Source: Candidatus Hydrogenedentota bacterium
Lineage (GTDB): Bacteria > Hydrogenedentota > Hydrogenedentia > Hydrogenedentiales > CAITNO01
Direction of reading: 5' to 3'
DNA length: 19,959 nucleotides
Assembly (NCBI GenBank): GCA_903922535.1
Contig: CAIXUF010001028.1
Coordinates: 1 to 19,959, forward strand
Every line of letters begins with the position of its first letter. Position 1 is the first letter of the stretch. The position numbers and the translations under genes are program-made. Positions 9,888 to 19,751 of the stretch are shown piece after piece. The notes beneath the pieces were generated by a model. That model saw only the letters and a list, made by a program, of their open reading frames with translations. It did not search any database and was not told where the DNA came from.

Positions 9888-11252
9888 CTAGCGGATGACG
9901 GCGAGCATATCTTCGATGCGGGAAAAGCGCTCGCGGGGTTTGCCCGTGAGAGCCCCCCGGGCCTTCTCGGCGGCGTCGATGCACCGCCAGTCGTCGAGGG
10001 AAACCACGCGCACACCGCGCGCGTGAAGCAATGTTTTCAGGGGCTGTGTGTGGGGTTCGGGGCAGGGGGGAAGCGTGGCGGTATCGGCCAGGATCGCCTT
10101 GGCGGTTTCATGACCGTCGGGTTTGTTGGTGCCAATTTGGCCAGAGGGGCCGCGTTTGATCCAGCCCGCCACATAGAAGCCGGGCATGGGACGGCCGTTG
10201 TGCTCGACCCGCCCGAGGGTGTTGGGGACGATGCCTTCCCGTTCCGCGAAGGGCAGGCCGGGAATGGGCACGCCCCGGTAGCCGATGCTTCGGAAAAGGA
10301 TTCCGCAGGGTATTTCGACACTGTCGCCGGTTCCCTGCGGGTGCTGCCGGAATGGGGGACCGACGAGCCGGTTTTTCTCGAAGACGGCGGAATGGACCCT
10401 ATCCACGCCCCGAACCGTCTGCGGGCTGAGCAGGAAGCGGAAGACAACTTTGCGGCCGCACGGGTTGGGGGACCGTGATGCATAGTCACCGAAGACCTGC
10501 ATGATGCGCTGCAAGTCAGGGGTGTCTATTTCCCGTGTGGAGGCGTCATCAAGCAGAAGTTCTTCTGCTCGGGCCACGGGTGTGCAGCCGGGGATGGCTC
10601 CCATTTCCTTCAACTCAGGCAGCGCAAACTTCACTTGGGCGGGACCGCGGCGTCCCACAATATGCACTTCTCGGACGCGGCTTTCGGCGAGTGCGTCCAG
10701 GGCGTGCCGGGCGATGTCGGTGTGGCGCAGGCGCTCCACGGGCGTGAGCAGGATGCGGGCCACGTCGAGGGCGACGTTGCCCGCGCCGACGATTACGGCC
10801 GTTTCCTGCGACAGGTCGAAGGTGCAGTCGGCGAAATCGGGGTGGGCGTTGTACCAGCCCACGAAGGAGAAGGCCGAATGGCAGCCGGGCAGGTTTCCAC
10901 CGGGGATGTCCAGGGGGCGGTCGGCCTCTGCCCCGGTTGCCAGCACGACGGCATCGTAGAAACGGCGCAGTTCGTCGAGCGAGACATCCCGGCCAACGGT
11001 CACATTGCCGAGGAAGGCGAAGCGCGGGTTTTCCGCAAGTTTTTCAAAGGTGCGTGCGGCACCGCGAATCTTGGGATGGTCCGGCGCGACCCCGCCGCGC
11101 ACAAGGCCAAAAGGCACGGGCAGCCGGTCGAACATATCCACCGTGCAGTGCAGGTGCGATTTGAGCAGCGGTTCGGCGGCGAAGAAGCCCGCCGGGCCGC
11201 TGCCCACAACGGCGACCCGCAGGGGGCGGTCCGGTGTTCCCAGGAGGTGCAT
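9888..11252 (-). CDS. fprA: FprA-type ferredoxin/adrenodoxin--NADP reductase
   Basis: This is a 454-residue two-dinucleotide-binding flavoprotein. The FAD site is VAVVGSGPAGFFAAEPLL (GxGPAG at 17-22), followed by FDRLPVPFGLVRGGVAPDHP, which is characteristic of the adrenodoxin reductase/FprA family. The NADP site is VIVGAGNVALDVARIL (about 154-169), and VGRRGPAQVKFALPEL follows. The C-terminal signature GWIKRGPSGQIGTNKPDG is present. These enzymes pass electrons between NADPH and ferredoxin. No ferredoxin or P450 gene is adjacent, so the partner is elsewhere. Length is that of the mycobacterial enzyme. AAGG lies about 9 nt before the ATG. The gene is divergent from the zinc-ribbon membrane protein gene. 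Confidence 0.92.
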   Translation of the reverse strand: MHLLGTPDRPLRVAVVGSGPAGFFAAEPLLKSHLHCTVDMFDRLPVPFGLVRGGVAPDHPKIRGAARTFEKLAENPRFAFLGNVTVGRDVSLDELRRFYDAVVLATGAEADRPLDIPGGNLPGCHSAFSFVGWYNAHPDFADCTFDLSQETAVIVGAGNVALDVARILLTPVERLRHTDIARHALDALAESRVREVHIVGRRGPAQVKFALPELKEMGAIPGCTPVARAEELLLDDASTREIDTPDLQRIMQVFGDYASRSPNPCGRKVVFRFLLSPQTVRGVDRVHSAVFEKNRLVGPPFRQHPQGTGDSVEIPCGILFRSIGYRGVPIPGLPFAEREGIVPNTLGRVEHNGRPMPGFYVAGWIKRGPSGQIGTNKPDGHETAKAILADTATLPPCPEPHTQPLKTLLHARGVRVVSLDDWRCIDAAEKARGALTGKPRERFSRIEDMLAVIR

Positions 11253-14098: not shown

Positions 14099-14716
14099 AT
14101 GAAGAGTGACTTTGTGAAGATATTCGTCTTTGTGGTGCTGGTCATGGCGGCGCAGACCACCGCATTTTGGTTGCAGGCTTCCGGGAACCCGGCGTTCGCC
14201 GAGGCAACGGTCGGGCAAACCATGCCCGGATTTGCTTTGCCTGACCTGGACGGCAAAAGTTTTTCGCTTGCCCAGTATGCGGGCAAGATTGTGATGATAG
14301 AGTTTTGCAACATTGGCTGCCCCTATTCGCGCGGCACCGACCCCGATCTCATCGCCCTGGCGAAAAGCTACGCGTCCAAGGGCGTTGTGGTGCTGGGCAT
14401 CGACTCGAACACGACCAACGCGCCCGCGGACATCAAGAAATACGCCACCGACAAGGGCAAGATCTATCCCATCCTGAAGGATCAGGACAACAAGTACGCC
14501 GACGCGGTGGGCGCAAAGACCACCCCGGAAGTCTATGTCATTGACAAGGACGGCAAGCTGGCCTATCACGGCGCTTTTGACAACCGCGCCCAGCCCGACA
14601 AGAAGGGAAACACCCCCTACGCGGAGAACGCCGTCAAGGCGCTTCTGGACGGCAAGGCCGTTGATCCCAAAGAAGTGAAGTCCTGGGGCTGCGGAATCAA
14701 GCGCGTGTCGAAATGA
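14099..14716 (+). CDS. Membrane-anchored or secreted AhpC/TSA-type thioredoxin-fold protein
   Basis: This is a 205-residue protein. Residues 5-24 form a signal peptide or signal anchor. The rest is a peroxiredoxin/TlpA-like fold: VGQTMPGFALPDLDGKSFSL, then the active-site region IEFCNIGCPYSRGTDPDL with Cys70 and Cys74, then the cis-Pro loop TTPEVYVIDKDGKL. A late Cys198 (SWGCGIKR) is shared by this subgroup. The active site is CNIGC (CX3C), not CXXC, so peroxidatic or metal-handling chemistry is as likely as disulfide reduction. GAGG precedes the ATG. A TTGACA (14043-14048) upstream lacks a good -10. It leads a two-gene unit with the lipoprotein thioredoxin: the stop TGA overlaps an ATG in the next frame and the preferred start is 26 bases further on. 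Confidence 0.8.
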   Translation: MKSDFVKIFVFVVLVMAAQTTAFWLQASGNPAFAEATVGQTMPGFALPDLDGKSFSLAQYAGKIVMIEFCNIGCPYSRGTDPDLIALAKSYASKGVVVLGIDSNTTNAPADIKKYATDKGKIYPILKDQDNKYADAVGAKTTPEVYVIDKDGKLAYHGAFDNRAQPDKKGNTPYAENAVKALLDGKAVDPKEVKSWGCGIKRVSK

Positions 14717-14742
14717 GCGGCGGGGCCTGCAGGGACCAACAC

Positions 14743-15273
14743 ATGCCGTTGACACGTCTGGCCTGCGGGTGTGTGGCTGCCGGTGTGTTGGTGCTGATCA
14801 CCGCGTGTGGAAATGTCCCGGTAGGCAACAGCACAGCCGCCTCCAGTCCGGCTGTAATATCCACCGTGGACGCTGCCAAAATGGGTGAGAGCATCAAGGC
14901 GGCCCACGGCACAGTGACAGTGGTGAACCTGTGGGCGACCTGGTGTCCGCCGTGCGTGGCGGAGATGCCCGAGTTTGCGAGGTTCTACACCGAGACCAAG
15001 CGAACCGACGTGACCTTCATCAGCGTGAACGCAAACGCCCCGGAAACGATTGCCGGCGAGGTCAAGCCGTTCATCGAGAAGAACAAATTGCCCTTCCCCG
15101 TGTCCGTGCTGTCCAATGCCGATCCCGAAGCGATAGGCAAGGCCACCGGCGCCGAAGTCAGCGGGGCGCTGCCCCTTACCCTCATTTACGATCGTGCGGG
15201 AAAGCTCCAAAAGACGCTGGAAGAGCCCGTCACCTTCGACATCCTGACCGCTCTGGTCAAGCCGCTACTGTAG
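14743..15273 (+). CDS. TlpA-like thioredoxin lipoprotein
   Basis: This is a 176-residue protein. The N-terminus is a lipoprotein signal (MPLTRL, hydrophobic core, lipobox LITAC with Cys22 lipidated). After a Ser/Ala-rich linker comes a thioredoxin fold with WATWCPPC (Cys68, Cys71). The cis-Pro segment GALPLTLIYDRAGKL follows. TlpA/ResA-type proteins reduce disulfides outside the cytoplasmic membrane, for example in cytochrome c or metal-centre assembly. An ATG at 14713 overlaps the previous stop (ATGA) and would add ten residues. I prefer 14743 because AGGGA lies 7 nt before it and the signal peptide starts cleanly there. It pairs with the upstream CX3C protein as a likely redox couple. Confidence 0.85.
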   Translation: MPLTRLACGCVAAGVLVLITACGNVPVGNSTAASSPAVISTVDAAKMGESIKAAHGTVTVVNLWATWCPPCVAEMPEFARFYTETKRTDVTFISVNANAPETIAGEVKPFIEKNKLPFPVSVLSNADPEAIGKATGAEVSGALPLTLIYDRAGKLQKTLEEPVTFDILTALVKPLL

Positions 15274-15547: not shown

Positions 15548-16909
15548 TTATTCCGGATCGACCGGGTAGCCCTGCTGGCGGTAGGTCTGGAGGCGGTAGG
15601 TGAGGGTACGGCGGCTTATGCCGAGAGCGCGGGCCGTCTCGCTCCGGTTGAACTGGTGCTCCTGCAGGACCTGGAGGATGGTGGCGCGCTCGACGTCGTC
15701 CATATAGGTGCCCGTTGCGGGTTCGTCGTGCGTTGTCTCCGTTGCGGGCTGCGCCTGCTGCATGCGCTTGGGAAGGTGTTCGGTCAGAATGACATCGCCG
15801 CGGGCAAGGAGGACGGCGCGCTCGATGACGTTGCGCAGTTCGCGCACGTTTCCGGGCCAGTCGTGGAGTTCCATGCAGGCGATGGTGCCGGGGGAAAAAC
15901 GCGGCTTGCCCTTGCTGAACTCGGCCGCGAACTGGCGGGCAAGCGGGGCAATGTCGGCCTTGCGTTCGCGCAGCGGCGGGACGTGGATTTCCATGACGTT
16001 AAGCCTGTAGAAGAGGTCCTCGCGAAAACGTCCCGCCTCGACTTCCCGCTCCAGATTGCGGTTGGTGGCCGCGAGTATTCGGACGTTTGTCTGTATCTCG
16101 GTGTTGGATCCGACGCGGTTAAAGCTGCCGTCCTGGGTGACGCGCAGCAGCTTTGCCTGCAATGCGGGGGACATTTCGCCGATCTCATCAAGCAGCAGCG
16201 TGCCCTTGTCGGCCTCCTCAAAGCGGCCGATGCGCCTTCCGAGCGCGCCGGTGAAGGCACCCTTTTCATGGCCGAAGAGTTCGCTTTCGAGCAGGTTCTC
16301 GGGGATGGCGGCGCAGTTCACTTTCACCAGGGGCCCGGCAGCACGGGCGCTCCAGCGGTGAAGGAGGTCGGCGACGACTTCCTTGCCGGTGCCGCTTTCG
16401 CCGGTGATGAGCAGGCGCGTGTCGGAGGGCGCGGCCAGCGCGGCGTCGCGCAGCACCTCCAGCATGGCCGCGCTTTGGGCGACGATGTTTTCGGGTATCT
16501 TGAAGCCTTCCGGGGCCGGTGCGGGACCGCTGTCGGCCAGGACCAGGGCGCGGCGCACGGTGGCAAGCAGTTCGTCGAGGTCGATGGGCTTTTCCAGGTA
16601 GTCCACGGCGCCGCCGCGGATGGCGCCGACGGCGTCGAGTATGTCGGCGTAGGCGGTGACGAGCAGCATGGGCAGGCCGGCGTATTTTCCGACGACGCTG
16701 TCCAGCAACTGCAATCCTGTCATGCCGGGCATGCGCACGTCGGAGATGAGCATGTCCGGGCGGGCCGCGGCGAGACGCTCCAGCGCGTCGTGCCCGGACA
16801 CAGCCGTGATTACGGAAAAGCCCTGTCCGGAGAGGAAGGACTCCAGCAGGCTGCGCTGTCCCGGATCGTCATCGACGACGAGTATGTTCTTTCCGAGCGG
16901 TTTGTTCAC
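15548..16909 (-). CDS. Sigma-54-dependent response regulator, NtrC/ZraR type
   Basis: This is a 453-residue activator with three domains. The receiver (8-120) has VVDDD at 11-15, phosphoacceptor Asp57 in SDVRMPG, Thr85 and Lys107 in YLEKP. The AAA+ domain (about 140-370) has Walker A GESGTGKE, the sigma-54-contacting GAFTGA loop (GHEKGAFTGALG) and Walker B GTLLLDEIGE. The Fis-type HTH at the C-terminus ends in NRSETARALGISRRTLTYRL. On phosphorylation such proteins bind an upstream dyad and open sigma-54 promoters. The start is the GTG at 16907-16909, 2 bases after the kinase stop, with AAGGA overlapping the kinase's last codons. The likely target is the sigma-54 promoter at 19445-19459. Confidence 0.93.
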   Translation of the reverse strand: MNKPLGKNILVVDDDPGQRSLLESFLSGQGFSVITAVSGHDALERLAAARPDMLISDVRMPGMTGLQLLDSVVGKYAGLPMLLVTAYADILDAVGAIRGGAVDYLEKPIDLDELLATVRRALVLADSGPAPAPEGFKIPENIVAQSAAMLEVLRDAALAAPSDTRLLITGESGTGKEVVADLLHRWSARAAGPLVKVNCAAIPENLLESELFGHEKGAFTGALGRRIGRFEEADKGTLLLDEIGEMSPALQAKLLRVTQDGSFNRVGSNTEIQTNVRILAATNRNLEREVEAGRFREDLFYRLNVMEIHVPPLRERKADIAPLARQFAAEFSKGKPRFSPGTIACMELHDWPGNVRELRNVIERAVLLARGDVILTEHLPKRMQQAQPATETTHDEPATGTYMDDVERATILQVLQEHQFNRSETARALGISRRTLTYRLQTYRQQGYPVDPE

Positions 16910-16911
16910 GT

Positions 16912-18549
16912 TCAGTCCTTCGCGCCGTTTTTGTCCAAGGCAATGCCACGCACCACAAACACGGCCCCGTTTCCGCCGGATTCGCAGGCCACCTCCCAAT
17001 GGTGGGCGAGCGCGATTTGGCGCACCACGGCGAGGCCGAGTCCCGTGCCGTGTTCCGAGGCGGTGACGTAGGGGCGGAACACCTCTTCGCGATCCTTCTC
17101 GGGAACACCGGGGCCGTTGTCACGGACTTCCATGCGCGCGGTCTTGTCCGATTCGGCAGCCAGACGCACTTCGACATGCCCATGGTTGGACACGGCCTGC
17201 ACGGCGTTGATCAGCAGGTTAAAGAGGGTCTGGCGCAGCATGTCCTCGTCGGCGATCACATGAAGTTGCGGTCCGGTCAGCACAAGGGAAACGCCTTTCT
17301 CTTCCCGGTCGACGGCGAGCACATCGAACATCGACTGCACGAGCGCGTTGAGGTCAACCCGTTTGGGGGCCGGCTGCACGGGCCGGGCGTAGGCGAGAAA
17401 CTGGTTGAGCCTTCCGGCCACGCGGTCGGCCTCTTCGGTAATCTTTTCGGCGGTGTCGCGCACTTCCATGGGGACGCCCACGCCGCGCCCGATCATCTGC
17501 GACATGCCCCGGATCAGGTTGAGCGGATTCTTTGTCTCATGAACCAGGCCGGCCGCCGTGACATTTAGTTCCTGCAGGCGGGTGGAGATTTCCTGGGCGC
17601 GCACAAGCTGGACCGCCAGATCGGAGGAGCGCCGGAAGGAGCGCCATGCCAGGGCGAGGGCCATGCAGGCCAGCAGGGCGCCGCCGAGCACAATGCCGCG
17701 CAACCGCAGGTCGGCGGCCACTTCGGCGCGCAGCGCGTCCGTCGGAATGGTGACCAGGAACCAGTGCACGCCGTGTTCCTGCACCAGCCGCTCATACTCG
17801 GGCCGGTTCATCCAGGGCGGTTGTTCGGGCGGCGGACCGGACGGCGGGCCCAGCGCCATCATGAGCAGGTCTCTAAGCATCTCCTCGGTCAGCGGGCGGC
17901 CCACCAGCGAGCGGCGCAGTGTTTCGGCGCGGCCTTCATTGACGGCCCCCTCCCGAAACATGCCGAGTATGGTGTCCACCTGTTCCGCGCTCAAAGGGCT
18001 GTCGCCGACCATGCCGAGCAGCGTCTTGCGGTTGGCCTCGCTGATGAGGGGCGCGACAAAGGGGCTGTTCAGGAAATCCTGCACGGTTCTTGCCTCGCCG
18101 TGCCCGTTGGGGTCGCGCGGCGCGTCCAGCGGCAGGATGGCGGGAGAATTTGCGTTGCCTTCCGTGCCGGGGCCCAGTGCGACGAGGTTGGCGAAAGAGG
18201 CGGTGTCGCGCGTCCAGTATTCATGGGTGCGCAGCAGCATGGCCGCGTCGACAACCATGGGGCGTCCCGCCTTGGCGACCACCTCGCCGGCGGCGTTGAG
18301 CAGCATGACGGACCGAAGTTCAGTTGAGTTGGTGAGTTCGCTGAGTGCCGCCTCCAGGCGGGGTTTGGGGATGATCGCGGTTCTTCCCTGGGAACGGATG
18401 ACCACGCTGAGCGCGGCGGAAAGATCGTGGGCGCGGTTTGCCAGATTCTTCCTGGCCAACTCACCCGCCCTCTGGTGTTCGAGAAGCTGCCAGCCTGCAA
18501 AAGCCAGCCACGTGATCACGAGCAGCGCGTAGGTCAGGTTTCGGCGCAT
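16912..18549 (-). CDS. Membrane sensor histidine kinase, partner of the sigma-54 regulator
   Basis: This is a 545-residue kinase. TM1 is at about 5-22. A large extracytoplasmic sensor region (about 23-284) includes a proline-rich stretch GPPSGPPPEQPPW shortly before the second membrane segment. TM2 is at about 285-302. The cytoplasmic dimerisation domain has the H box AAGLVHETKNPLNLIRGMSQ with His337. The catalytic GHKL domain has the N box NLLINAVQAV, G1 VRDNGPGVP, F box VFRPYVT and G2 GTGLGLAVV. The H-box wording (HEtkNPLnli.G) is that of NtrB/ZraS/AtoS-type kinases that serve sigma-54 regulators. The ATG at 18547-18549 puts the membrane helix right at the N-terminus; an upstream in-frame start at 18609 is less likely. 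It is tightly coupled to the regulator gene. Confidence 0.9.
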   Translation of the reverse strand: MRRNLTYALLVITWLAFAGWQLLEHQRAGELARKNLANRAHDLSAALSVVIRSQGRTAIIPKPRLEAALSELTNSTELRSVMLLNAAGEVVAKAGRPMVVDAAMLLRTHEYWTRDTASFANLVALGPGTEGNANSPAILPLDAPRDPNGHGEARTVQDFLNSPFVAPLISEANRKTLLGMVGDSPLSAEQVDTILGMFREGAVNEGRAETLRRSLVGRPLTEEMLRDLLMMALGPPSGPPPEQPPWMNRPEYERLVQEHGVHWFLVTIPTDALRAEVAADLRLRGIVLGGALLACMALALAWRSFRRSSDLAVQLVRAQEISTRLQELNVTAAGLVHETKNPLNLIRGMSQMIGRGVGVPMEVRDTAEKITEEADRVAGRLNQFLAYARPVQPAPKRVDLNALVQSMFDVLAVDREEKGVSLVLTGPQLHVIADEDMLRQTLFNLLINAVQAVSNHGHVEVRLAAESDKTARMEVRDNGPGVPEKDREEVFRPYVTASEHGTGLGLAVVRQIALAHHWEVACESGGNGAVFVVRGIALDKNGAKD

Positions 18550-18597
18550 GGTTGATTTGTTTCCTCTGTCTTCCGGGGTGGTTCCCGGCGCGCATCG

Positions 18598-18603
18598 ATT
18601 ATA
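18598..18603 (-). promoter_or_regulatory. Possible -10 box for the kinase-regulator genes
   Basis: A perfect TATAAT on the minus strand lies about 50 bases before the kinase ATG, but no good -35 sits at 16-18 bases. It could give basal expression of kinase and regulator independent of the sigma-54 promoter. Confidence 0.35.
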
Positions 18604-18651
18604 TGTCATCCGGGCATTGCGGGCAGCATTGACAACGGGGCAAGGCAGGGT

Positions 18652-18685
18652 GGCGGCGCACCGGACCAGTTTCCGATGCGCCGCC
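18652..18685. terminator. GC-rich stem-loop between EF-hand gene and kinase gene
   Basis: GGCGGCGCA (18652-18660) pairs perfectly with TGCGCCGCC (18677-18685), and CGG/CCG extend the stem inward past a one-base bulge. It lies 20 bases after the EF-hand stop on the minus strand. There is no U-run, so it more likely reduces read-through or protects the EF-hand message than terminates fully. Confidence 0.5.
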
Positions 18686-18704
18686 TGTGTTCGGCCGATA
18701 TGAA

Positions 18705-19370
18705 TTACTGTCGGGGCGGGCCGTCACCGGGACCAAAGGGACCGCCCGGGCCGCCGTGTCCGGGTTCAGGACCGCGGGCCTTCTTCATTTCTTCCCTGCT
18801 CAGGCTCCCGTCCTTGTTGGTGTCGATTTCGTCAAACTGCCGCTGGACGATCTTTGCCCAGGCGGTGGTGTATTCCTCCTTGGTGACTTTGCCGTCCTTG
18901 TTGGCGTCGAGCTGTTCGGCTGTGGGATGCGGCGGCCTCATGGGCGGGCGCCTTCCACCGGCCTGGCCATCGGGTGGTGGTGGGGGACCGCCTGCGGTGT
19001 CACCGGTGCCGTGGTCACCGCCGCGCGGACCGTGTTCGGCGCTGTCGGTCTTCTCAAGTTCTTTCTTGCTTAGGCTGCCGTCGCTGTTGGTGTCCAGTTT
19101 CTTGAACTGTTCCTGGATGAACTTGTCCCATGCCGCAGTGTATTCCTCGTTGGTGATCTTGCCGTCGTGATTGGCGTCCAACTGGTCGGGGGAGGGGCCG
19201 AAGTGGCCGGGTCCGCCGCCGGGACCACCGGGCGGCGGCATCATGCCACCGGGTCCTCCGGGGGGTGGACCATAACCGTCACCGGGGCCGCCCTGGGCCA
19301 AAGCCGGGGCCAAAATGAGCACTGAGGCGGCCAGGGCCATACAGCCCGTTAATAGCAGCGTGGTTTTCAT
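18705..19370 (-). CDS. Secreted EF-hand protein with two tandem EF-hand pairs
   Basis: This is a 221-residue protein. Residues 1-25 are a signal peptide ending in ALA before Gln26. Gly/Pro-rich stretches (27-61 and 113-150, and the C-terminal tail) separate two EF-hand pairs. The calcium loops are at 65-76 (DANHDGKITNEE), 93-104 (DTNSDGSLSKKE), 155-166 (DANKDGKVTKEE) and 183-194 (DTNKDGSLSREE). All have the canonical D-x-N/D-x-D-G-x-hydrophobic-x-x-x-E pattern, so all four should bind Ca2+. The second pair repeats the first at a 90-residue offset, which is an internal duplication. The start ATG 19368-19370 has AAGGAG 8 nt upstream. A consensus sigma-54 promoter precedes it and the kinase/regulator pair follows on the same strand. 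It probably acts outside the cytoplasmic membrane. Confidence 0.9.
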   Translation of the reverse strand: MKTTLLLTGCMALAASVLILAPALAQGGPGDGYGPPPGGPGGMMPPPGGPGGGPGHFGPSPDQLDANHDGKITNEEYTAAWDKFIQEQFKKLDTNSDGSLSKKELEKTDSAEHGPRGGDHGTGDTAGGPPPPPDGQAGGRRPPMRPPHPTAEQLDANKDGKVTKEEYTTAWAKIVQRQFDEIDTNKDGSLSREEMKKARGPEPGHGGPGGPFGPGDGPPRQ

Positions 19371-19444
19371 TGCCGCGTCTCCTTCTTTGTTCTGCATTCA
19401 GTTTGTGGCCGCGTCCTGCACGGGGACGTTTCGATTGGGACAAG

Positions 19445-19459
19445 GCAAGGTTCGTGCCA
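19445..19459 (-). promoter_or_regulatory. Sigma-54 (-24/-12) promoter of the EF-hand gene
   Basis: On the minus strand the sequence is TGGCAC-GAACC-TTGC. This matches the sigma-54 consensus TGGCAC-N5-TTGC exactly over these bases and keeps the required GG-N10-GC spacing. The predicted start of transcription is near 19433, giving a leader of about 63 nt before the EF-hand ATG. An NtrC-type activator is encoded downstream in the same direction. Confidence 0.8.
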
Positions 19460-19502
19460 TGCGGCGAAGATGGGTGCGGGGAGAGATTCAGTCGAGAGGA
19501 TG

Positions 19503-19540
19503 TTTTGGGGGTGTTGCGAGTCTGGACAATACCCAAAAAA
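19503..19540. promoter_or_regulatory. Dyad upstream of the sigma-54 promoter, candidate activator site
   Basis: TTTTGGGGGTGTTG (19503-19516) and CAATACCCAAAAAA (19527-19540) are an inverted repeat matching at 11 of 14 positions with a 10-base spacer. Its centre is about 90 bases upstream of the predicted sigma-54 start, the usual position of enhancer sites for NtrC-family activators. No U-run follows on either strand, so a terminator is less likely. Confidence 0.45.
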
Positions 19541-19541
19541 C

Positions 19542-19651
19542 ATGGACAATATGGACAGTATGGACGAAATGGACAATATGGACAATATGGACGGGTTGCC
19601 GCACAGATCTTGGCGCGGGTCCATACCGTCCATACCGTTCATTTCGTCCAC
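19542..19651. repeat. Palindromic array of 9-nt ATGGACnnn units
   Basis: Six perfect head-to-tail units ATGGACnnn (AAT, AGT, GAA, AAT, AAT, GGG) run from 19542 to 19595. After a 26-base loop, four complementary units (GTCCATACC twice, GTTCATTTC, GTCCAC) run from 19619 to 19651. The 33-base arms 19560-19592 and 19619-19651 pair in register with six differences. On the minus strand five of the six become G-U wobble pairs, so the hairpin would be strongest in minus-strand RNA. That RNA would be the 3' trailer of the SAM hydroxide adenosyltransferase gene. The gap 19371-19751 contains this array, the dyad and the sigma-54 promoter, and no gene. Confidence 0.85.
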
Positions 19652-19751
19652 GAGTTCTATTATGGCGGTCAGGCTAAATGCGGGTCTCCGCTGCGTAATC
19701 TTTGCCTGTGCAGGAGATCGGGGCTGCGCAGAATCTGCGCAGGGCGGAACC

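Follow-up and report, generated by a model that had tools for sequence, protein, structure and literature searches.

The DNA analysed here (the window; 19,959 nt from a Candidatus Hydrogenedentota bacterium) carries three co-oriented genes on the minus strand, which encode a secreted EF-hand protein, a sensor histidine kinase and an NtrC-type response regulator (Table 1). A first-pass annotation had described the three genes as lying in one direction, which Pfam confirms, and the order EF-hand/kinase/regulator is conserved among the loci of relatives. Cleavage of the Sec-type signal peptide was placed by eye after PALA and before Q, and the predicted starts of homologues mostly match the ATG at 19370, not the upstream ATG at 19397. 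According to Pfam and homologues, the protein consists of two compact EF-hand pairs within Gly/Pro-rich sequence. The four canonical loops noted previously are indeed present, as D-x-N-x-DG...E motifs with 28 residues between the loop starts of each pair; they score above the Pfam cut-offs, and the protein is predicted to bind Ca2+. The regulator, which likely starts with the GTG at 16909, combines a Response_reg receiver, a Sigma54_activat AAA+ domain and an HTH_8 Fis-type HTH (Pfam), i.e., the architecture of an NtrC-type activator.

Table 1 Features of the operon and its upstream region (window coordinates)
Feature	Position	Strand	Basis or remark
Putative activator site 1, TGCGCAGATTCTGCGCA, exact TGCGCA-N5-TGCGCA	19725..19741		282 nt upstream of box
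Putative activator site 2, CAGGCAAAGATTACGCA, weaker, score 10.7	19692..19708		33 nt from site 1
Inverted 9-bp (ATGGACNNN) arrays	19523..19650		between putative activator sites and promoter
Sigma-54 -24/-12 box TGGCACGAACCTTGCC	19444..19459	-	73 nt from box end to EF-hand ATG 19370
EF-hand protein, secreted, 221 aa, Sec-type signal peptide	18705..19370	-	Pfam and homologues
Sensor histidine kinase, HisKA/HATPase, 545 aa	16912..18549	-	Pfam, homologues, structure models
NtrC-type response regulator	15548..16909	-	Pfam, NCBIfam, nearest solved NtrC-family/ZraR

Pfam returned only EF-hand and related Ca2+-binding families for the output protein, and its best NCBIfam match, XopAW, scores 65.4 against a cut-off of 120, which is far below. 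Scavenging of lanthanide-type metals by a LanM-like protein would be in line with the compact spacing of the pairs (28 residues), a weak PDB match to lanmodulin (6mi5, E 5.5e-4) and an NCBIfam LanM score of 38.6 bits; it is nevertheless very unlikely, as the cut-off of 135 is not reached, other Ca2+-binding proteins match equally well or better in the PDB comparison, and loop position 2 lacks the Pro that is a feature of LanM. EfhP of Pseudomonas aeruginosa, an EF-hand protein with two EF-hands and Ca2+ regulation (PMC9132961, PMC11559002), is likewise a bacterial EF-hand protein, and the excerpts of these reports note no comparable sigma-54 operon.

The kinase core is ZraS-like, with ZraS (9jfj) as the nearest solved core by profile, and ZraR (1ojl) ranks fifth among the nearest solved regulators. 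To this extent the ZraPSR likeness put forward in the annotation stands, and it includes the general design of a sensor kinase, an NtrC-type regulator, a sigma-54-dependent output and, as proposed here, self-regulation; in enterobacteria the regulator acts on its own genes and the output is sigma-54-dependent, according to the excerpted text of PMC7657598. Membership in the family does not stand. Among the NCBIfam models the kinase matches ZraS best, yet the score of 149.9 bits lies below the cut-off of 479, and the regulator stays below the cut-offs of both ZraR (400.3 bits, cut-off 760) and AtoC (470.9, cut-off 714), with the AtoC and NtrC models outscoring ZraR. Furthermore, the output is an EF-hand protein and not ZraP, the same promoter element is found before a MacAB-TolC-type operon in some relatives, and the modeled sensor of the kinase, an alpha/beta extracytoplasmic domain with a helical insert between two long helices, gave no match to solved structures at E < 0.001 in Foldseek, where KinD and DctB sensors (E 0.14-2.6) and CitA (2.7) recur as weak matches. 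A zinc-responsive ZraPSR orthologue, for which the kinase core, the best NCBIfam match and the sigma-54 output would speak, is extremely improbable, since it fails at the level of the NCBIfam cut-offs and the output protein; the comparison indicates analogy, not membership.

The box upstream of the EF-hand gene corresponds to the sole exact TGGCAC-N5-TTGC in the whole window, TGGCACGAACCTTGC, and the annotation had recognized it correctly but placed it about 63 nt from the start, where we measure 73 nt. With up to two mismatches, 22 matches were found in the window against 27.4 expected, so that weak matches carry no meaning, and none of 300 shuffles of the 200 nt preceding the EF-hand ATG yields a box of equal quality. 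The box end lies 55-77 nt before the ATG in all EF-hand promoters with upstream DNA (n = 14, window included), and the RpoN DNA-binding domain was found in 18 of 18 genomes. Upstream of secretin genes, one of 62 regions has a box score of at least 13. Similar boxes occur elsewhere in the genomes examined, as would be the case for a chance box, with an EF-hand gene encoding an ordinary secreted protein beside an unrelated regulator; this reading is disfavoured and carries hardly any probability, because the position of the box and the gene order are conserved and the putative activator sites are paired.

Site 1 scores 20.6 with a matrix that was made without window DNA and includes the identical site of L001. 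Paired sites 32-34 nt apart are also present in nine relatives (L001, L002, L005, L007, L008, L009, L031, L109 and L110), where the second copies score 9.8-18.3. A putative site (score at least 14) and a box within 330 nt were found in 13 of 14 EF-hand promoters, a count that is partly circular because the motif was chosen by eye from these promoters; in the stretches compared, none of the 63 secretin-type loci and none of the 7 unclassed ones has this arrangement. The fourteenth EF-hand promoter, that of L003, has a site pair 33 nt apart at 522-555 nt upstream. The recognition helix of the regulators is similar in the EF-type and secretin-type. The distance from site to box is unusually long in the window; a scan of 260 nt gave only a weak copy and its extension to 420 nt the exact site, upon which a degenerate palindrome at 19600-19619, the first candidate, was dropped.

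The region assigned to regulator binding in the annotation, 19503-19540, coincides with a dyad described as lying about 90 bp upstream of the promoter. The dyad exists (arms 19500-19516 and 19527-19543, 82% complementary) and is inside or adjoining the block of inverted arrays, with a 9-bp minisatellite array at 19542-19592 beside it; compared with the corresponding stretch in L001 and L002, the block is longer by about 136 nt, and similar arrays occur in 10 of 12 genomes. Our data do not lend support to the dyad as an activator site, and it was rejected as such for its position within a block that is missing in L001 and L002. Conservation in related loci, proposed at the outset as a check, is found for the -24/-12 box in the 14 promoters and, with L001 and L002 as the comparison, not for the dyad. 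The activator sites of the window are likely the conserved pair farther upstream (sites 1 and 2), beyond the coordinates covered by the annotation.

In the kinase scan, 80 of 300 confirmed stretches were kept, and 19 of 68 genomes of the phylum have a kinase match at 1e-60; the genomes compared are mostly metagenome-assembled. A pattern was matched by 46 stretches of viral contigs, none of which was a relative, and in 46 plasmid records the best place covers 4% of the query. Exact sites number 17 in the 15 EF-clade genomes and 22 in 15 genomes without a strong kinase match, whereas a box accompanies 8 of the 17 as compared with 2 of 16 loci scanned in the latter genomes, both at the threshold of 13.0. 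With exact sites at similar frequency, only box linkage separates EF-clade genomes from the others. A text search of a Desulfovibrio sigma-54 paper (PMC4641369) did not find the motif core.

Exporter operons and T2SS operon promoters are targets outside motif building. Site and box occur upstream of an exporter operon of OEP/HlyD/ABC/MacB type in 6 of the 15 EF-clade genomes, with adjacent OEP, HlyD, ABC and MacB genes in G002, G006 and G022 (Pfam) and G021 (tblastn), HlyD-ABC-MacB and no OEP seen beside them in G004, and a sequence that stops after OEP in G005. OEP matches lacking the site-box element were found in G003, G010, G012, G013, G018, G020 and G055, there is no OEP match in G007, and the G001 contig ends before the exporter promoter. 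The presence of OEP, HlyD, ABC and MacB/FtsX in one operon is shared with tripartite exporters of the MacAB-TolC type; the window differs in that no exporter operon lies within it, and in the relatives the regulator would control theirs.

In secretin-type relatives, site and box precede a T2SS operon that ends in a homologous kinase and regulator, in the order element, small Sec-exported Gly-rich helical protein, gspE...secretin-kinase-regulator. In L236, a single operon comprises gspE, gspF, pseudopilins and secretin by Pfam, together with the homologous kinase and regulator; L237 and L238 have this order by resemblance, as does L239 up to the kinase, and secretin identities are 29-39%. G011 has a site before its T2SS operon with only a weak box (12.5), and G078 has none near. 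In contrast to these operons, the interval from promoter to kinase is free of gsp genes in the EF-type loci, the window included. Kinship of the small T2SS-linked protein with ZraP/Spy, to which it may bear a general likeness, was rejected, as Pfam gave no such match even at E 10 (three sequences) and NCBIfam none at all (one sequence). In the kinase tree, built by a quick method without bootstrap and with L046 left out as too short, the EF-linked kinases group in a single branch nested within the secretin-linked family (SH-aLRT 96), with one change between EF and secretin labels; L050, L009, L010 and L079 have long branches. The first T2SS gene of G008 and G055 encodes a fusion of an EF-hand pair with the helical domain, plausibly an evolutionary intermediate.

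We consider it likely that the locus is a self-activating sigma-54 two-component operon that has T2SS-operon ancestry and, in some of the relatives, controls an exporter as well; the sigma-54 output, self-regulated operon and secreted EF-hand protein of the annotation find support at the level of sequence. The kinase would sense an envelope or export-related condition and phosphorylate the regulator, which would bind the TGCGCA-N5-TGCGCA-type dyad pair, about three helical turns apart, and activate RNA polymerase-sigma54 at the EF-hand promoter box, and the levels of EF-hand protein, kinase and regulator would rise together. In some relatives the response would comprise export as well as the secreted EF-hand protein, since the same element precedes the MacAB-TolC-type exporter. 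The kinase/regulator pair would descend from a T2SS operon, the EF-hand protein having taken first place in the EF clade.

Alternatively, as put forward in the annotation, the Ca2+-loaded EF-hand protein may modulate the kinase in the periplasm, the operon answering Ca2+ or envelope stress. This is possible, though on balance doubtful: the four canonical loops and the conserved EF-hand/kinase/regulator linkage are in agreement with it, as is a precedent in Caulobacter vibrioides, CaBP-SigV, in which a periplasmic EF-hand protein is looped with a sigma factor (PMC13171946, abstract); that system, compared by description and not by sequence, differs in its ECF sigma factor, and the abstract mentions no kinase/NtrC pair. 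However, L007, L008 and L009 have one strict loop each by pattern scan, and the kinase family also occurs in T2SS operons whose first gene lacks an EF-hand, hence the ancestral kinase signal need not be Ca2+.

The first-gene protein could also be export cargo, handled after Sec export by a transporter under the same control (originally the T2SS, and one of MacAB-TolC type in some members of the EF clade), and inform the kinase through its periplasmic level. A small, exported-looking Gly-rich protein that has its element in common with a transporter in the operons examined, and the fusions in G008 and G055, point this way, but the protein is not known to carry a secretion signal for either machine, and of the 15 EF-clade genomes only 6 were found to have an exporter with the element; we hold this to be unlikely. 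A rather improbable extension is a transferable module of cargo plus exporter, in which one kinase/NtrC pair with a single DNA site at first controlled a small exported protein together with its T2SS, an EF-hand pair was fused to that protein (G008, G055), an EF-hand head gene came to stand by the kinase, a MacAB-TolC-type exporter was recruited into the regulon, and the head protein reports export capacity to the kinase from within the periplasm; bacteria would then gauge secretion through a dedicated tracer protein.

Searches of open-licence PMC literature gave no description of an EF-hand, kinase and NtrC sigma-54 combination, which is weak evidence of absence, and nothing on Hydrogenedentes with sigma-54 or on ZraP with EF-hand. 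Returning to the preferred reading of a self-activating operon, it provides a concrete regulator, a putative DNA site and a target list for uncultured phyla, and presents a two-component system that has apparently switched its output and of which intermediates are still living. Should the link to secretion be true, the tuning of secretion machines to load and the purpose of secreted bacterial EF-hand proteins would become testable. Caution is also advised in naming such kinases ZraS; ZraSR genes have been reported in Hydrogenedentota and Sumerlaeota MAGs (PMC10866078, excerpt), and these may or may not be the present family.

Pfam backs each of the three genes that the first-pass annotation had read in one direction, those for the EF-hand protein, the histidine kinase and the NtrC-type regulator, all on the minus strand, and the consensus sigma-54 −24/−12 element (the box) that it had placed ahead of the EF-hand gene is an exact TGGCAC-N5-TTGC, the only one in the window. 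Two thioredoxin-fold genes (AhpC-TSA/Redoxin; 14099–15273, plus strand) converge on the regulator gene's end.

Features of the EF-hand locus in the window
Feature	Position	Strand	Evidence or remark
EF-hand protein	19370–18705	minus	Pfam
Histidine kinase	18549–16912	minus	Pfam
NtrC-type regulator	likely 16909–15548	minus	Pfam
Sigma-54 box TGGCACGAACCTTGCC	19444–19459		exact TGGCAC-N5-TTGC; ends 73 nt ahead of EF-hand ATG
Putative activator site TGCGCAGATTCTGCGCA	19725–19741		matrix match
Putative activator site, weaker copy	19692–19708		matrix match; 33 nt from the 19725–19741 copy
Inverted 9-bp (ATGGACNNN)n arrays	19542–19650		

The box is kept in relatives. Upstream DNA is present for 14 EF loci, i.e., fetched loci in which the kinase follows an EF-hand gene (L051 is cut off), and in 14/14 the best box within 200 nt of the ATG ends 55–77 nt before it, with scores of 13–15.5 of 15.5 and a fraction of equally good shuffles of 0 to 0.043 (300 shuffles). 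Ahead of secretin genes, the other common neighbor of this kinase, a box of at least 13 is found in 1 of 62 upstream regions (Mann–Whitney p = 2.6e-9, a guide only, because related rows are not independent). The dyad at 19503–19540, previously proposed for regulator binding, fares differently from the box, as it sits in a block that is extra to the related loci L001 and L002.

A recurrent dyad, TGCGCA-N5-TGCGCA (variant TGSGCAA-N3-TTGCSCA), lies upstream of the EF-hand boxes, with a second, often weaker copy 31–34 nt off in most EF loci. The matrix built from 14 such sites, to which the window contributes none, finds the window's pair at 282 and 249 nt from the box, compared with 146 and 112–113 nt in L001 and L002; the spacing is longer because of a ~136-nt block with the inverted arrays, and the dyad at 19503–19540 falls inside this block. 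In L003 (L218 8611–9166) the pair is 522–555 nt from the EF-hand box, and a hairpin-type repeat stands between them. Similar 9-bp arrays are present in 10 of the 12 related genomes scanned (reversed control pattern, 0 matches), with 221 matches in genome G021, and stand as inverted pairs in several places.

The combination of site (at least 14) and box (at least 13) within 330 nt is found by script in 14/15 EF loci, L003 being counted via another place, which leaves 13/14 EF-hand promoters; it is absent from 63 secretin-type loci and 7 unclassed ones. Exact sites alone are not enriched, with 17 in 15 EF-clade genomes (G020 placed among them on its kinase) versus 22 in 15 genomes of the phylum where the kinase has no strong match. 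A box lies no more than 320 nt away from 8/17 EF-clade sites versus 2/16 control sites (16 of the 22 had loci), and both control boxes score just 13.0. Five of the eight boxed EF-clade sites are EF-hand promoters, and three lie ahead of genes for a MacAB-TolC-type exporter.

The exporter promoters, which played no part in building the matrix, carry site plus box ahead of the OEP gene (G002) or HlyD gene (G004) directly after the regulator, and ahead of an OEP gene away from the regulator locus in G006. The G002 OEP protein as query gave 31 matches in 18/19 genomes, 30 with loci, and site plus box at 4/30 (G022, G006, G021, G005); these four make up the top five matches together with G001, whose OEP gene (L189) is cut short by the contig end. 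The remaining 25 are without site plus box, including those in G003, G010, G012, G013, G018, G020, G055, G014, G015 and G059. Gene order is OEP-HlyD-ABC-MacB in G002, G006 and G022 (Pfam) and G021 (tblastn), HlyD-ABC-MacB in G004, and just OEP in G005, whose contig stops there, so that 6/15 EF-clade genomes have an exporter with site plus box. In G003 and G018 the upstream operons start at a contig edge; that of G003 encodes an OEP and a large protein that looks RND-like by eye, that of G018 a MacB-OEP pair.

The operating mode is probably sigma-54 activation from the dyad pair: the phosphorylated regulator would bind the pair and loop to RNA polymerase-sigma54, and the activated promoter would raise the EF-hand protein, kinase and regulator together, and in some relatives the exporter. 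The RpoN DNA-binding domain is present in 18/18 genomes tested, and regulators of the two types, EF and secretin, have similar recognition helices (13 EF and 39 other rows), which fits one shared site for both. The sensor is predicted to fold as an alpha/beta domain that carries a helical insertion (mean pLDDT 84 alone, 77 for the whole kinase), and its model had no match under E 0.001 among solved structures. Buffer, sensor partner and exported cargo are candidate roles for the EF-hand protein. The likeness to ZraPSR (PMC7657598) lies in circuit logic; CaBP-SigV (PMC13171946) is an analogue in which an EF-hand protein takes part in a sigma-factor circuit, and a further one is the described role of sigma-54 in governing the bacterial exterior.

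The top eight genome loci for the kinase are Hydrogenedentota records (51–84% identity), and matching sizes (22378, 16922, 12236) suggest that kinase and EF-hand relatives share contigs. Among the best 80 of 300 loci from the genome scan plus the window, the gene directly ahead of the kinase is an EF-hand ORF in 12, a secretin ORF in 62 and unclassed in 7 (L004, L026, L029, L033, L046, L057, L077; several stop at a contig edge). With L109, L110, L111 (EF) and L113 (secretin) added from phylum genomes, a quick, unbootstrapped tree search placed the 15 EF rows and unclassed L004 on one branch (SH-aLRT 96) nested in the secretin-linked family, with one change for EF against secretin labels, or two for the EF group if L004 counts as 'other'. 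The EF-hand gene of L001 (4856–5841) is broken across two frames, by assembly error or real decay. The kinase/regulator pair behind secretin genes is widespread (Verrucomicrobiota, Omnitrophota, Sumerlaeota, Lentisphaerota and Hydrogenedentota records among L010–L080), and a few of these loci read as whole type II secretion (T2SS) operons. The G009 secretin found only distant matches in 12 EF-type genomes (29–39% identity among matches listed), and kinase-linked secretins in G009 (100%, self) and G059 (56%); G055, outside those 12, has a T2SS operon with secretin.

A set of 15 secretin-type genomes holds 14 exact sites, spread over 10 genomes, and 7/14 lie ahead of the gene for a small, Gly-rich, helical protein that looks exported (G009, G011, G070, G072, G074, G076, G078). 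Boxes score at least 14.5 at five of the seven; the best in G011 scores 12.5, and none lies within 200 nt in G078. The small protein is followed by gspE to secretin, then kinase and regulator, in G009, G011 and G072, by the same order up to the kinase, where the fetched stretch ends, in G074, and by partial operons in G070 and G076; Pfam identifies T2SSE, T2SSF, GspH, T2SSJ, T2SSK, Secretin_N and Secretin in G009, gsp genes elsewhere being named by resemblance. A small-protein profile (A4; rows from G009, G011, G072, G074, G076) matches 10/26 genomes, 9/11 secretin-type (two through their own rows) and 1/15 EF-clade. Site plus box is found at 7 of 12 small-protein loci scanned, including G078, a doubtful case with its box (13.0) 297 nt away, and not in G011, G073 or three of G079. 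L234 (G076 C203) has an exact site and a box of 13.5 ahead of an ORF that is neither small protein nor EF-hand gene.

The first T2SS gene encodes an EF-hand pair fused to the small protein's helical domain in two genomes, G008 (L249/L256), which is sister to the EF clade, and G055 (L248/L255), which carries an EF-type kinase; the G008 operon ends in kinase and regulator, and neither lies within the fetched stretch of G055. From the small-protein operons and these fusions we infer an order of events from T2SS operon to EF-hand operon. Near the EF-type locus L009, a Lentisphaeria record, a small protein (10065–10511) that drew no match in Pfam and NCBIfam searches is helical, with a hydrophobic start and a Pro-rich stretch.
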